Shown in pieces: positions 33,574 to 53,208 of a DNA stretch of 64,000 nucleotides. The translations under genes and the position numbers were made by a program. The stretch lies in NCBI RefSeq assembly GCF_031157255.1, contig NZ_JAVIFX010000004.1:62001-126000 (forward strand). The letters run 5' to 3'. The notes beneath the pieces were generated by a model. That model saw nothing but the letters and a program-made list of their open reading frames with translations, had not been told where the DNA came from and made no database searches. Position 1 is the stretch's first letter; each line of letters opens with the position of its first letter. Origin of the DNA: Bradyrhizobium sp. LHD-71. GTDB lineage: Bacteria > Pseudomonadota > Alphaproteobacteria > Rhizobiales > Xanthobacteraceae.

Positions 33574-34596
33574 ATGAGCACCGCACAGGATACCTCTGCC
33601 GACATCGCCGGAACGCGCCCTGCCGCCGGAAAGTCGATTCTGACGGTGCCGCTCGTCGCCAGCCTCGCCACGCTGGGACTGCTGATCGTCGTTCCGCTGT
33701 TCCTGAAGAATTTCGTGGTGTTCCAGCTCACCATGATCGTCATCTACGCGATCGCGATCCTGTCGCTGAACATCCTCACCGGGGCGAGCGGCCAGGTCTC
33801 GCTCGGGCACAGCGCGTTCTTTGCTGTCGGCGCCTACGCCACCGGCATCATGATGGAGCACGCCAACGTCCCGTATCTGCTGGCAATCCCGATCGCCGGG
33901 GTGATCTGCTTCGTCATCGGCTTCCTGTTCGGCTTCCCGGCACTGCGCCTGAAGGGCGTCTATCTGGCGCTTGCCACCTTCGCGCTGGCGGTCGCGGCAC
34001 CGCCGCTGTTCAAGCTCGGGACGTTCGAGCATTGGACCGGCGGCGTTCAGGGCCTGCTCGTCACCAAGCCCGAACCGCCGTTCGGCCTGGACATCAGCCA
34101 GGACCGGTACGTCTATTATCTGTCGCTCACCATCGCGCTGATCATCTACCTGCTGTCGGTCAATCTCCTGAATTCCCGCTCCGGCCGGGCGCTGATGGCG
34201 ATCCGGGACAACGAAATCGCCGCCTCGTCGATGGGCGTCGATCTTGCCCTCTACAAGACGCTGGCGTTCGGGATCAGCGCCGGCTTCACCGGGATTGCAG
34301 GCGCGCTCGGTGCCATCACCGTCGCCTACGTGGCGCCGGACGCCTACACCTTCAACTTCGCCATCGCCCTGTTTCTCGGCATGGTGATCGGCGGCGTAGG
34401 CTGGCTGCCAGGATCGCTCGCCGGTGCGGCGTTTATCGTGTTCGTGCCGAACATTGCCGAGGGCATTTCGAAAGGGCTGTCCTATGCCGTGTTCGGCGTA
34501 TTTATCTTTGCTGTAATCTTCCTGTTGCCGAATGGCGCGCGGCAACTCGCTTACTATCTGTATGCTCAAATCAAGAAGCTAGTGTCCCGGTTCTAA
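33574..34596 (+). CDS. livM: Branched-chain amino acid-type ABC transporter permease LivM, C-terminus formed by a repeat element
   Basis: This is the second permease of the importer, 340 residues with about nine helices. The LivM core YAIAILSLNILTGASGQVSLGHSAFFAVGAYATGI and the ATPase-contact loop RDNEIAASSMGVDLALYKTLAFGISAGFTGIAGAL are clear. ATG 33574 follows livH by 1 bp. The last five codons (Leu-Val-Ser-Arg-Phe) and the stop lie inside the left arm of the long hairpin element beginning at 34578, so the natural end of the protein was probably replaced when the repeat arrived. Confidence 0.92.
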   Translation: MSTAQDTSADIAGTRPAAGKSILTVPLVASLATLGLLIVVPLFLKNFVVFQLTMIVIYAIAILSLNILTGASGQVSLGHSAFFAVGAYATGIMMEHANVPYLLAIPIAGVICFVIGFLFGFPALRLKGVYLALATFALAVAAPPLFKLGTFEHWTGGVQGLLVTKPEPPFGLDISQDRYVYYLSLTIALIIYLLSVNLLNSRSGRALMAIRDNEIAASSMGVDLALYKTLAFGISAGFTGIAGALGAITVAYVAPDAYTFNFAIALFLGMVIGGVGWLPGSLAGAAFIVFVPNIAEGISKGLSYAVFGVFIFAVIFLLPNGARQLAYYLYAQIKKLVSRF

Positions 34597-34655
34597 CGTT
34601 CGCATCACTTGCGGCAACCTCGTCTGCGAACGTTAGAACCAACAGGGACACTAGC
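34578..34655. repeat. Long hairpin repeat, copy A (27-bp stem)
   Basis: GCTAGTGTCCC (34578-34588) pairs with 34645-34655, and GGTTCTAACGTTCGCA (34589-34604) pairs with 34625-34640. Only a 4-nt bulge (AACA, 34641-34644) interrupts the stem. The 20-nt loop contains ACTTGCGGCAA. It overlaps the last codons and stop of livM. Copy B follows 13 bp later with the same plan but different paired bases. It may be a miniature mobile hairpin or a processed RNA structure, and it could also terminate the livGFHM message. Confidence 0.85.
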
Positions 34656-34668
34656 AATTTTATTAAGC

Positions 34669-34746
34669 TAGTGCGCTTTATGGATTTGACGTTCGTACTG
34701 AGGACTCGCGGCAAATGCTGGTACGAACGTCAAATCCAGCGCACTA
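34669..34746. repeat. Long hairpin repeat, copy B (26-bp stem)
   Basis: TAGTGCGCT (34669-34677) pairs with 34738-34746, and GGATTTGACGTTCGTAC (34682-34698) with 34721-34737. A 4-nt bulge (34678-34681) lies on the left strand. The 22-nt loop carries ACTCGCGGCAA, nearly the same as in copy A. Both copies begin AAGCTAGTG and share the stem core ACGTTCG. Copy B lies 43 bp before the first binding-protein gene. Confidence 0.85.
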
Positions 34747-34789
34747 TCCAAGTAACGCCAATCCGAAGCAGCTTAAGGAGAGGAACTGA

Positions 34790-36022
34790 ATGAGTATCAA
34801 GGTTCGTTCGCGTCTTGCGGCCCTGTCGGCAGCGACGCTCGCCGTAACGATGATGAGCGGCGCAGCCTTTGCGCAGAAGAAGTACGACACCGGGGCGACC
34901 GACACCGAGATCAAGATCGGCAACATCATGCCCTACAGTGGGCCCGCGTCGGCCTACGGCGTGATCGGCAAGACGATCGATGCGTACTTCAAGAAGATCA
35001 ACGCCGAGGGCGGCATCAACGGTCGCAAGATCAGTTTCATTTCCTATGACGATGGCTACAGTCCGCCGAAGGCGGTCGAGCAGGTGCGCAAGCTGGTGGA
35101 AAGCGACGAGGTCCTGCTCGTGTTCGACCCGCTCGGAACGCCGAGCAACACCGCGATCCAGAAGTACCTGAACCAGAAGAAGGTGCCGCAGCTGTTCGTC
35201 GCCACCGGCGCGACCAAGTGGAACGACCCGAAGAGTTTCCCGTGGACGATGGGCTGGCAGCCCAACTACCAGACCGAAGGTCAGATCTACGCCAAGTACG
35301 TCCTGAAGGAGAAGCCGAACGCCAAGATCGCGGTGCTCTATCAGAACGACGACTACGGCAAGGACTATCTGAAGGGTTTCAAGGACGGTCTCGGCGCCAA
35401 GGCCGCCAGCATGATCGTCGCCGAAAGCAGCTACGAAGTCTCCGAACCGACCATCGACTCCCATATCGTCAAGCTGAAGTCGTCGGGCGCCGACGTGTTC
35501 TTCAACATCGCCACGCCGAAATTCGCGGCGCAGGCGATCAAGAAGGCGGCCGAGATCGACTGGAAGCCGATGCAGTTCCTGAACAACGTCTCGGCCTCGA
35601 TCGGCAGCGTGATCAAGCCCGCAGGCTTCGAGAATGCGCAAGGCATCATCTCCGCAGCCTACCTGAAGGACGCGACCGATCAGCAGTGGAAGAACGATGC
35701 AGGCATGAAGCGCTTCGACGAATTTCTGGCGAAGTACTTTCCCGAGGGAAATCGCATCGACCTGAATGTCATCTTCGGTTACAGCGTCAGCCAGACGATG
35801 GTACAGGTGCTCAAGCAGGCCGGAGACAACCTGACCCGCGCCAACGTGATGAAGGAAGCGGCGAGCCTGAAGGACCTGGAGCTGGACCTGCTGCTGCCGG
35901 GCATCAAGATCAACACCGGCCCGACCGACTTCGCCCCGATCTCGTCGGTGCAGTTGATGCGGTTCAAGGGCGATACCTGGGAGCGCTTCGGCGACGTCCT
36001 GAGCGCCGACGCGACCAACTGA
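34790..36022 (+). CDS. ABC transporter substrate-binding protein (LivK/HAAT type), paralogue 1
   Basis: This is the periplasmic ligand-binding protein for the upstream LivGFHM-type importer. The signal peptide (MSIKVRSRLAALSAATLAVTMMSGAAFA) is followed by a type I periplasmic-binding fold: IKIGNIMPYSGPASAYGVIGKTIDAYFKKINAEGGINGRKI and AVLYQNDDYGKDYLKG. It has 410 residues, with AAGGAGAGG before the ATG. A strong terminator follows the gene. A second protein of equal length and roughly four-fifths identical by eye is encoded next. The family includes binders of amino acids, amides and aromatic acids, so the ligand is open. Confidence 0.93.
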   Translation: MSIKVRSRLAALSAATLAVTMMSGAAFAQKKYDTGATDTEIKIGNIMPYSGPASAYGVIGKTIDAYFKKINAEGGINGRKISFISYDDGYSPPKAVEQVRKLVESDEVLLVFDPLGTPSNTAIQKYLNQKKVPQLFVATGATKWNDPKSFPWTMGWQPNYQTEGQIYAKYVLKEKPNAKIAVLYQNDDYGKDYLKGFKDGLGAKAASMIVAESSYEVSEPTIDSHIVKLKSSGADVFFNIATPKFAAQAIKKAAEIDWKPMQFLNNVSASIGSVIKPAGFENAQGIISAAYLKDATDQQWKNDAGMKRFDEFLAKYFPEGNRIDLNVIFGYSVSQTMVQVLKQAGDNLTRANVMKEAASLKDLELDLLLPGIKINTGPTDFAPISSVQLMRFKGDTWERFGDVLSADATN

Positions 36023-36091: not shown

Positions 36092-36416
36092 CAGGTGGCA
36101 TCACGGTCCTGTTTGCAAGCGCACGGCTATACCTTGGGTCCGCCGATTGCGCTAAGCTTGCCGGGCGACCGACGGCACCGGCCGGCTGCCTGACCAGCCC
36201 GCCGAGACTGCATTCATCTTGCCGGCGCACGATATCGCAGAGGCGATTTTACAAGACCTCTCGTTTTCCAAGACCTTTCGGCGCCGTGTGTGTGGCGCCT
36301 CGTCCTTGCAATGGTCCGTTGCCGTTGAGCGCGCGGCAGCCTGCTTTTTCCTTGTCGCGCTCGAACAACAAGAAACTGGAGAAGCCAATCGCCTGAACCA
36401 ACAGAGGAGCAACGTG
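36092..36416 (+). other. 325-bp spacer between the two binding-protein genes
   Basis: I see no gene here. In-frame codons upstream of paralogue 2 exist from about 36219 but have no signal peptide or ribosome-binding site. A GGCGCC pair (36280-36285 and 36294-36299) can form a small hairpin. AGAGGAG at 36403-36409 serves paralogue 2. With a terminator just before it, the spacer should hold an independent promoter, though I cannot point to a clear one. Confidence 0.5.
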
Positions 36417-37649
36417 ATGACACTCAACCTTCGCTTCCATCTTGCAGCGTTGGCGGCGACTGCCCTTGCCGTCACCGCGACGGGAGGCACCGCCCTAGCC
36501 CAAAAACAATACGACACCGGTGCGAGCGACACCGAGATCAGAATCGGCAACGTCAATCCCTACAGCGGACCGGCATCGTCCTACGGCGTGATCGGCAAGA
36601 CGATCGACGCCTACTTCAGGAAGATCAACGCGGAAGGCGGCATCAATGGCCGCAAGATCACGTTCATCAGCTATGACGACGGCTACAGCCCACCGAAGAC
36701 GGTGGAGCAGGTGCGCAAGCTCGTCGAAAGCGACGAGGTGCTGTTCGTCTTCCAGCCGCTTGGAACGCCCGGCAACACCGCCATCCACCGCTACATGAAT
36801 CAGAAGAAGGTGCCGCAGCTGTTCGTCGCCACCGGTGCGACCAAGTGGAACGATTCTCAGAACTTTCCCTGGACCATGGGCTGGCAGCCCAACTACCAGA
36901 CCGAGGGACAGATCTATGCGCAGTACGTCATGAAGGAGAAGCCGACTGCCAAGATCGCGGTGCTCTATCAGAACGACGATTACGGCAAGGACTACCTGAA
37001 GGGCCTGAAGGACGGCCTCGGCGCCAAGGCCGCCAGCATGATCGTCGCCGAAAGCAGCTACGAGGTGTCCGAGCCGACAGTCGATTCGCACATCGTCAAG
37101 CTCAGGTCCTCGGGCGCCGATGTCTTCTTCAACATCGCCACACCGAAGTTCGCGGCACAGGCGATCAAGAAGATGGCCGAGATCGACTGGCGGCCGCTGC
37201 ACATTCTGAACAACGTGTCCGCCTCGATCGGGAGCGTGATCAAGCCAGCCGGCTTCGACAACGCGCAAGGGATCATCTCTGCGATCTACGCCAAGGACGT
37301 GACCGATCCGGAGTGGAAGAATGACCCGGGCATCAAGAAATTCGACGAGTTCCTCACCAAATACTATCCGGAAGGAAACCGCATCGATGCCTTCGTGATG
37401 TACGGCTACAACGTGTCGCAAACCATGGAGCGGGTGCTGCATCAGGTGGGCGACAACCTGACGCGCGCGAACATCATGAAGGAGGCCGCCAACCTGAAGA
37501 ACGTCGAGCTCGACGGCCTGCTGCCAGGCATCCGCCTGAACACCAGCCCGACCAACTTCGCGCCCATCAGCCAGGTGCAGCTCGTGCGCCTGAAAGGCGA
37601 GACGTGGGAGCGGTTCGGCCCGATCCTCGGCGCGCAAATGACCAACTGA
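36417..37649 (+). CDS. ABC transporter substrate-binding protein (LivK/HAAT type), paralogue 2
   Basis: This is a second periplasmic binding protein, again 410 residues, with signal MTLNLRFHLAALAATALAVTATGG. Most of the mature chain matches paralogue 1, including GVIGKTIDAYF, YDDGYSPPK, KVPQLFVATGATKWND and LYQNDDYGKDYLKG. Differences cluster near binding-site loops (for example VFDPLGTPSNTAIQK against VFQPLGTPGNTAIHR) and could shift ligand preference. I start at ATG 36417 (AGAGGAG 7 nt upstream), not the GTG just before. It has its own terminator, so it can be expressed apart from the transporter operon. Confidence 0.93.
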   Translation: MTLNLRFHLAALAATALAVTATGGTALAQKQYDTGASDTEIRIGNVNPYSGPASSYGVIGKTIDAYFRKINAEGGINGRKITFISYDDGYSPPKTVEQVRKLVESDEVLFVFQPLGTPGNTAIHRYMNQKKVPQLFVATGATKWNDSQNFPWTMGWQPNYQTEGQIYAQYVMKEKPTAKIAVLYQNDDYGKDYLKGLKDGLGAKAASMIVAESSYEVSEPTVDSHIVKLRSSGADVFFNIATPKFAAQAIKKMAEIDWRPLHILNNVSASIGSVIKPAGFDNAQGIISAIYAKDVTDPEWKNDPGIKKFDEFLTKYYPEGNRIDAFVMYGYNVSQTMERVLHQVGDNLTRANIMKEAANLKNVELDGLLPGIRLNTSPTNFAPISQVQLVRLKGETWERFGPILGAQMTN

Positions 37650-52977: not shown

Positions 52978-53208
52978 ATGACAAAACGAACAGCGCTCGC
53001 ACTTTCAGCGTCCATCCTTTCGATCGGTCTGGCGCTGACGCCAGCCGCCGCCCAGGACAAGATGAGCAAGGAAGGCATGTCCAAGGATTCCATGTCCAAA
53101 GACAGCATGAAGAAGGACGGCATGAAGAAGGACACGATGCACAAGGACAAAATGTCCAAGGACACGATGTCCAAAGACACGATGTCCAAGGACGGCATGA
53201 AGAAATGA
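52978..53208 (+). CDS. Pentapeptide MxKDx repeat protein, secreted
   Basis: This 76-residue protein has a signal peptide (MTKRTALALSASILSIGLALTPAAA, cleavage about residue 26). Nine consecutive pentapeptides of form M-[SKH]-K-[DE]-x fill residues 29-73, followed by MKK. It belongs to the MxKDx repeat family (TIGR02953), whose function is not known. The regular Met every fifth residue in a charged, probably helical chain would suit metal binding or methionine oxidation scavenging, which is inference. AAGGAG precedes the ATG. The repetitive DNA (15-bp units) is coding, not a CRISPR or satellite. Confidence 0.88.
   Translation: MTKRTALALSASILSIGLALTPAAAQDKMSKEGMSKDSMSKDSMKKDGMKKDTMHKDKMSKDTMSKDTMSKDGMKK

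Follow-up and report, generated by a model that had tools for sequence, protein, structure and literature searches.

The window analysed here, a stretch of 64,000 nucleotides from Bradyrhizobium sp. LHD-71, carries livM on its plus strand, followed by a gene whose product we take, judging by its translation, to be a branched-chain amino acid substrate-binding protein. A second substrate-binding-protein gene lies directly downstream (36219-37649) and is 83% identical to the first over 604 bp, a tandem duplication. At the junction of livM and the first of these genes is a pair of long hairpins, arranged as follows.

34579..34747, plus strand: whole two-hairpin element, 169 bp, with CTAG at its left end and CTAT at its right end
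34579..34654, minus strand when oriented as the family's unit, with the bulge 5': hairpin A, 81.1 bits with covariance model R1; outer stem 34579-34588/34645-34654, inner stem 34589-34604/34625-34640, loop 34605-34624, bulge 34641-34644
34594..34596, plus strand: present livM stop codon, TAA, within the 5' arm of hairpin A
34655..34667, plus strand: linker of 13 nt, CAATTTTATTAAG in the window copy and CAAnnTTATGAnT in the family form, resembling the IHF consensus
34668..34747, plus strand: hairpin B, 70.2 bits with R1; outer stem 34669-34676/34739-34746, inner stem 34681-34698/34721-34738, bulge 34677-34680, loop 34699-34720
34744..34755, plus strand: CTA TCC AAG TAA, the probable former 3' end of livM behind the element (CTG ATC AAG TGA in congener G001)
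34790..36022, plus strand: next gene, substrate-binding protein

A preliminary description of this DNA had reported two long hairpins with one 4-nt bulge each and with conserved loop words, and these are indeed present: in the centroid fold of single-stranded DNA each hairpin has 26 pairs and a single 4-nt bulge, and the loop words ACTTGCGGCAA and ACTCGCGGCAA are found in the two hairpins. As single-stranded DNA, both fold far better than shuffled sequences (z-scores of -7.9 for A and -9.5 for B, with equally good folds in 0 of 200 shuffles); as RNA, with a few flanking bases added, the z-scores are -9.9 and -6.9, respectively. The same description took the hairpins for tandem copies, whereas they make up a single 169-bp element, of which they are the two halves, inverted on either side of a 13-nt linker. 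The bulge lies on the 3' side in hairpin A and on the 5' side in hairpin B, in both cases on the linker-adjacent arm, and a search of the whole window with R1 (E up to 1) returned exactly two hairpins, with A scoring best on the minus strand and B on the plus strand; it is these opposite bulge sides and opposite strands that identify the halves as inverted. R1 is a single-hairpin covariance model, for which 54 hairpins were taken from other copies, a close relative within this genome among them. That the loop word appears in direct orientation in both hairpins is due to its GCSGC centre, which is nearly palindromic.

The hairpins had been placed after livM, but the element begins inside the last codons of that gene and provides its stop codon, and the new C-terminus of LivM, VSRF, is encoded by the element. 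Congener G001 is without the element at livM, and only 44 bp separate its aligned livM and binding-protein regions, as opposed to 214 bp in the window. Its livM ends in AAG CTG ATC AAG TGA; in the window, AAG CTA is followed by the remaining element and then by CTA TCC AAG TAA. Because of this difference in spacing, and because a probable former livM 3' end lies behind the element, the insertion most likely split the last codons of livM. The G001 site has CTGATC and no CTAG, and the right end of the window element reads CTAT.

Copies and distribution of the family

The hairpins had been suggested to belong to a miniature element family, and many further copies were found, both in the same genome and in other Alphaproteobacteria, together with compensating changes in their arms. 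In its own genome, where 40 of 192 candidates were scored, the window element has at least 76 matches at at least 40 places, some places being incomplete or mixed in type. That genome also holds a second, young subfamily: with 40 of 172 candidates scored, it occupies at least 42 places that align over 166 or more of the 168 bases and are 96-100% identical. A pattern for the outer ends matched 90 times forward and 85 times in reverse, compared with 0 and 0 for the backwards control. Since at least 19 of the 100 end matches listed (of 175) lie within ~200 bp of a contig end, the repeat breaks the assembly.

The distribution of the element in the Alphaproteobacteria is wide but patchy. It was found in 11 of the 41 genomes of a search among relatives (own genome counted), and R1 matched in 16 of 289 genomes of a class-wide draw (13 of the 235 of good quality) under strict filters, the own genome again included. 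The linker pattern occurs in at least 87 stretches of the genome collection, in Bradyrhizobium, Nitrobacter, Afipia, Hyphomicrobium, Mesorhizobium, Rhizobium, Hoeflea, Stappia, Phyllobacterium, Asticcacaulis, Brucella (tritici, grignonensis and pituitosa) and Parvularculaceae, among others. No match to the element was found in PLSDB (distant blastn, E 1e-5), and the exact linker pattern was absent from the viral contigs searched; carriage by plasmids or viruses was rejected on these results.

Most of the extracted elements (97/111) are 165-170 bp in length. A double hairpin with short loops, ~121 bp in genome G231, is found at L313-L318 (G231 and G449). Moreover, mosaics in which hairpins A and B of different lineages are joined occur in the own genome (L245, L250, L251 and L252) and in Hyphomicrobium (L049 and L062), where the TCCC-type hairpin sits on the right instead of the left. 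From these mixtures and this switch of side, the hairpins seem to be exchanged as modules.

Insertion at CTAG

We show herein that copies of the family insert at CTAG, and that filled sites carry one CTAG more than empty sites. CTAG stands at both outer ends and both inner junctions of the family element; all 30 young copies have it on the left and 28 of the 30 on the right, and adjacent copies have one CTAG in common. When 35 Brucella-genus genomes were set against a filled site of that genus (L095), the flanks of the site overlapped by exactly 4 bp in G078, G079 and G080. The empty site in G078 and G079 is a single CTAG, ...acagCTAGaattg, and the filled site has CTAG at both ends; other genomes of the genus (e.g. 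G095, G088 and G077) align less cleanly there. Mobility, which the preliminary description proposed to check by looking for empty sites, is thus borne out by clean empty sites in three Brucella-genus genomes, in addition to the missing element in congener G001. The Bradyrhizobium site L054 gave no clean empty site, as the flanking sequence in relatives picks up again far past the element. A duplication of the target that extends past CTAG is ruled out, because flanks agree for a further 3, 4 and 5 nt in only 2, 0 and 1 of 108 elements. The 4-bp overlap fits either TA or CTAG as the true duplication. The target itself is rare, with 13 CTAGs in the 64-kb window, 3 of them inside the element, as against 216 expected from base composition.

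Some of these targets are stop codons. The TAG of an outer CTAG is the stop codon of the adjacent called gene in 39 of 108 elements, while other CTAGs of the same loci are stop codons in 32 of 258 cases. Where a gene ends within an element, it does so at the TAG of the outer CTAG in 44 of 45 cases, and none of the 108 elements lies inside a called gene. The 108 come from four locus sets of 24, 60, 14 and 10 elements, two of which overlap at some Bradyrhizobium sites; the count omits elements close to the end of a locus and those whose linker has more than two mismatches, and the gene calls are predictions of a home-made finder trained on the codon usage of long frames. For the four sets, the enrichment of stop codons has p = 0.04, 0.01, 0.0015 and 0.19 against all other CTAGs, and p = 0.15, 0.19, 0.005 and 0.25 against non-coding CTAGs alone. 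Since the values weaken in the latter comparison, we say only that the target is CTAG, CTAG stop codons included, and that the stop is kept. Because the duplication preserves the stop, an insertion at a TAG stop codon would leave the protein unharmed, and the element thereby illustrates a way for mobile DNA to insert at stop codons without harm.

Other sequences were seen at the same kind of site. Short palindromes of the AGCGCTTTCCGATT...AATCGGAAAGCGCTCTAG type are joined to the element through its outer CTAG in L323, L327 and L370. In L023 and L032 (genome G009), a sequence starting GGCCGTGTTGAC follows a broken element at CTAG, and is probably an insertion sequence with the same target. Another two-hairpin repeat, ~100 bp long and with GAATC in a loop (by eye) and an apparent TA duplication, lies within the inner CTAG of an element in L223 (1333-1431), and looks like a CIR-type element with the same target.

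Base pairing, stem core and linker

The preliminary description read covariation into the differences between the arms of A and those of B. As A and B are two halves of one element, that comparison is not evidence of covariation; the comparison between lineages is. Alignment A1 holds the window element and 43 of 69 non-redundant rows from 111 extracted elements. It is biased towards intact copies, as a near-exact linker pattern supplied 34 of the 44 rows. In this alignment 97.5% of cells are paired, compared with at most 43% in slid controls, and double changes occur at 33 of 47 base pairs, with 374 cells changed on both sides (the rows are related, and the cells therefore not independent). 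G-U accounts for 26 of 2012 standard cells (1.3%), as against 253 of 2730 (9.3%) in the RNase P of 30 genomes of the same order, and the ratio of one-sided to two-sided changes is 21:374 as against 156:287. The RNase P figures are for 30 of 41 matches and 93 of 99 predicted pairs; with all 99 pairs, G-U rises to 9.6%. Between lineages, G-U (26) is no commoner than A-C (24), as expected for DNA, in which G-T would be a mere mismatch. Thus, the pairing looks to be enforced on DNA and not on RNA. Equal transcription of both orientations under RNA selection could equalise G-U and A-C, but could hardly make G-U this rare.

Within the own genome the picture is reversed. Among 32 old copies, one-sided changes number 304 and double Watson-Crick changes 21, where independence would predict 8.6, and G-T and A-C come to 91 each; under the same counting rule, comparison between lineages gives 60 one-sided and 369 double changes, although those cells are not independent and the set leans to intact copies. 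The within-genome count used the window's own fold, and excluded L245, L250, L251 and L252 (other or mixed hairpin types), L258 (the same place as L018) and L256 (incomplete). Among 30 young copies there are 28 one-sided and 2 double changes, and stems vary by 1.03% as compared with 2.81% for loops. Single-change intermediates can be read from the young sequences, L334 being changed in one arm, L358 in the other and L337 in both. Because they decay one side at a time after insertion, resident copies are not kept folded in place; it is in the moving lineages that pairing is restored, whether through selection, through template correction or through the two together. Part of it may be mutational and not selected, since template correction of quasi-palindromes also yields covariation; in L346 and L350 the bulge has been copied into the opposite arm, and L370 and L382 contain hairpins that have no bulge.

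Both hairpins have in common a stem core, A(A/C)(G/A)TT(C/T)G, which covaries between A and B. Core position 8 is identical in A and B in 42 of 44 elements (mutual information 0.70, null 0.02), and the mutual information is 0.17 and 0.33 at core positions 9 and 12, and 0.33 at position 5, outside the core. Inner stems are 97% identical between the arms of A and only 71% identical between A and B. That the core changes together while the whole inner stems differ suggests that one factor reads both hairpins, although relatedness of the elements inflates this signal.

In all 44 elements the putative IHF-like linker agrees with the IHF consensus at 11-12 of its 13 positions, as against 184 of 3999 control stretches. 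As the linker is one inherited sequence, this fit is no more than suggestive. Of the 44 elements, 43 contain GANTC, but only 6 have it wholly inside a loop; it is found in the linker of 33 and in the arms of hairpin A in 28 and 30. The linker of the window copy is without GANTC, as are those of all seven old-subfamily copies checked in the own genome.

Mobilisation and relation to known repeats

Taken together, the feature in the window is probably an old, decaying copy of a mobile DNA element beside an amino-acid transporter gene. We favour, with reasonable confidence, a non-autonomous element of ~167 bp that is moved by an enzyme acting in trans. This enzyme would recognise the element as a hairpin, in single-stranded or cruciform DNA, read the stem core of both hairpins, and cut at CTAG. 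If only copies whose two hairpins still fold go on moving, then compensatory changes would build up in the mobile lineage and not in the resident copies, most of which would be selfish passengers between genes or at gene ends.

The insertion sites might alternatively be produced by an ordinary miniature inverted-repeat transposable element (MITE), the ends of which are bound in double-stranded form by a DDE transposase, for example of the IS5/IS630 kind, and the arms of which are complementary mainly through copying of one arm from the other by replication slippage. DDE transposases of this kind target CTAG/YTAR or TA, which agrees with the CTAG target and its 4-bp overlap. The arm-copying in L346 and L350 and the excess of double changes within the genome also speak for slippage. 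In Brucella, IS711 duplicates TA at YTAR and favours the Bru-RS repeats (PMC2266754, PMC3163539). Nonetheless, we consider this explanation rather unlikely. One-sided changes outnumber double ones in old and young copies alike, so template correction is slow; moreover, young stems vary less than young loops, though correction could also cause that. The two ends of the element resemble each other, but no transposon with these ends was identified. No autonomous copy, in which a gene would lie between the two hairpins, was seen in five Bradyrhizobium genomes or among the 100 of 175 end matches listed for the own genome. In the five genomes, the spacing is 165 bp in 17 of 18 end pairs, the remaining pair (266 bp) has another two-hairpin repeat within its inner CTAG, and three ends have no partner within two mismatches. 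Ends lacking a close partner in L364, L370, L377, L379 and L382 have diverged mates at about the normal distance, and an autonomous gene-carrying copy was rejected on that ground among the ends inspected.

Selection of the hairpins as RNA, whether as a 3'-end stabiliser, terminator, attenuator or small RNA, here tuning livM against the binding-protein gene, would agree with the very stable RNA fold, the place within a transporter gene cluster, and the fact that some copies begin at a stop codon. However, the scarcity of G-U and the one-sided decay of resident copies make such a role very unlikely, and a search of Rfam gave 0 matches at gathering scores, by which membership of an RNA family was ruled out. 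Of the proposal in the preliminary description that folding is under selection, as RNA or as DNA, the pairing kept across lineages is supported, and selection as RNA is not.

That a transposase or REP-type enzyme moves the hairpins had also been proposed, and paired hairpins with a linker do resemble the BIMEs moved by RAYT, a Y1 tyrosine transposase; mobilisation of this kind is scarcely credible, however, as the Y1 profile PF01797 gave a match in no more than 8 of the 23 genomes that carry the element, and the sole match in the own genome is stop-interrupted and flanked on either side by a different palindrome. Among the 15 genomes without a match is G042, a metagenome assembly with several nearly identical copies, in which absence is weak evidence. 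An IS200-type Y1 gene does lie ~150 bp from hairpins in two different genomes (L136, hairpins 1187-1351 and gene near 1501-1857; L137, hairpins 16-91 and gene 238-594), that is, in 2 of 17 PF01797 loci; in L136 it has another short palindrome on both sides, and its position would reflect either chance or a target preference of that IS. No enzyme moving the element was found by the PF01797 profile, end-pair spacing or inspection of unpaired ends, which weighs against the reading that we prefer, a hairpin-recognising enzyme acting in trans; so do the less clean sites in Bradyrhizobium and in some Brucella-genus genomes, and the missing CTAG at livM in G001. As an observation apart, the stop-interrupted RAYT-like gene of the own genome (L047 1174-2158, contig C19) has palindromes of 32-42 nt of its own on both sides, sharing GTAGCCCGCATGAGCGCAG, and would seem to be an ordinary, separate REP system.

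Among known repeats, the Caulobacter CcrM-associated intergenic repeats (CIR) reportedly go back to Chen and Shapiro (2003), Bru-RS1 and Bru-RS2 of Brucella are said to go back to Halling and Bricker (1994), and the Rhizobium-specific intergenic mosaic elements (RIME), which carry large palindromes, are likewise said to go back to Osteras (1995). In a 2007 review, CIR are intergenic repeats of ~110 bp, abundant in Alphaproteobacteria, with two long-inverted-repeat arms and a linker, TA termini, and GANTC at or partly in a terminal loop, and the mechanism of their mobility is left open (PMC2229807). The present element likewise has two long hairpin arms joined by a linker, and TA at both termini. 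Unlike CIR, it is ~167 bp long with larger loops, the short-loop form of G231 lying between the two in length, and GANTC sits for the most part in its linker and in the arms of hairpin A. By description, the architecture appears to be that of CIR while the length is not, and two-arm repeats such as CIR would be the closest known kind.

Other repeats are likened to the element by description as well. Bru-RS1 and Bru-RS2 are palindromic intergenic repeats of 103-106 bp (PMC10800456, PMC2266754, PMC3163539, PMC2267715); these too belong to an alphaproteobacterium and are tied to IS711 insertion at YTAR, but are shorter than the ~167-bp element. In 200 kb of G072, a 3.3-Mb genome of the genus Brucella and perhaps not of the right species, R1 found nothing significant (best E 0.85), and a 14-mer scan of the same 200 kb found no Bru-RS-like repeat. 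RIME are similarly repeated and intergenic in Rhizobium (PMC2573895). REPs and BIMEs are dispersed palindromes, often in inverted pairs, and the CGTC repeats are described as having stems of 8-9 bp, loops of mostly 4-5 bases and no associated transposase (PMC3733652). While that last feature is common to both, the present element has bulged stems of 26 bp, conserved CTAGTG/CACTAG ends and a 13-nt linker; neither a GTAG/CGTC tag beside a short palindrome nor a Y1 transposase flanked by these repeats was found in the element or in the genomes surveyed with PF01797. Br-REP1 and Br-REP2 are palindromic repeats from the same bacterial group, located in Bradyrhizobium 3' UTRs, but their printed consensus sequences are, by eye, unlike the stems described here (PMC5082802). 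A literature search, to which most subscription papers were beyond reach, gave no evident printed record of this very element among the matches listed.

With its clean empty sites and a young subfamily that has single- and double-sided intermediates, the family makes the question of CIR movement testable. Its signature, in which compensation occurs between lineages, G-U is hardly present and copies decay in place, separates selection for DNA movement from RNA function, and the same test is applicable to any hairpin repeat thought to be regulatory. A more tentative suggestion is that an alphaproteobacterial, CTAG-specific system of DNA-hairpin mobilisation other than RAYT might move ~40-bp palindromes, ~100-bp CIR-like repeats, and the ~121-bp short-loop and ~167-bp long-loop double hairpins, which join one another end to end via CTAG. 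Such a system could be timed with replication by way of the GANTC (CcrM) site that is present in most copies and of the IHF-like linker.

Elsewhere in the window, a tandem array with periods of 15 and 30 bases is located at 53067-53193.
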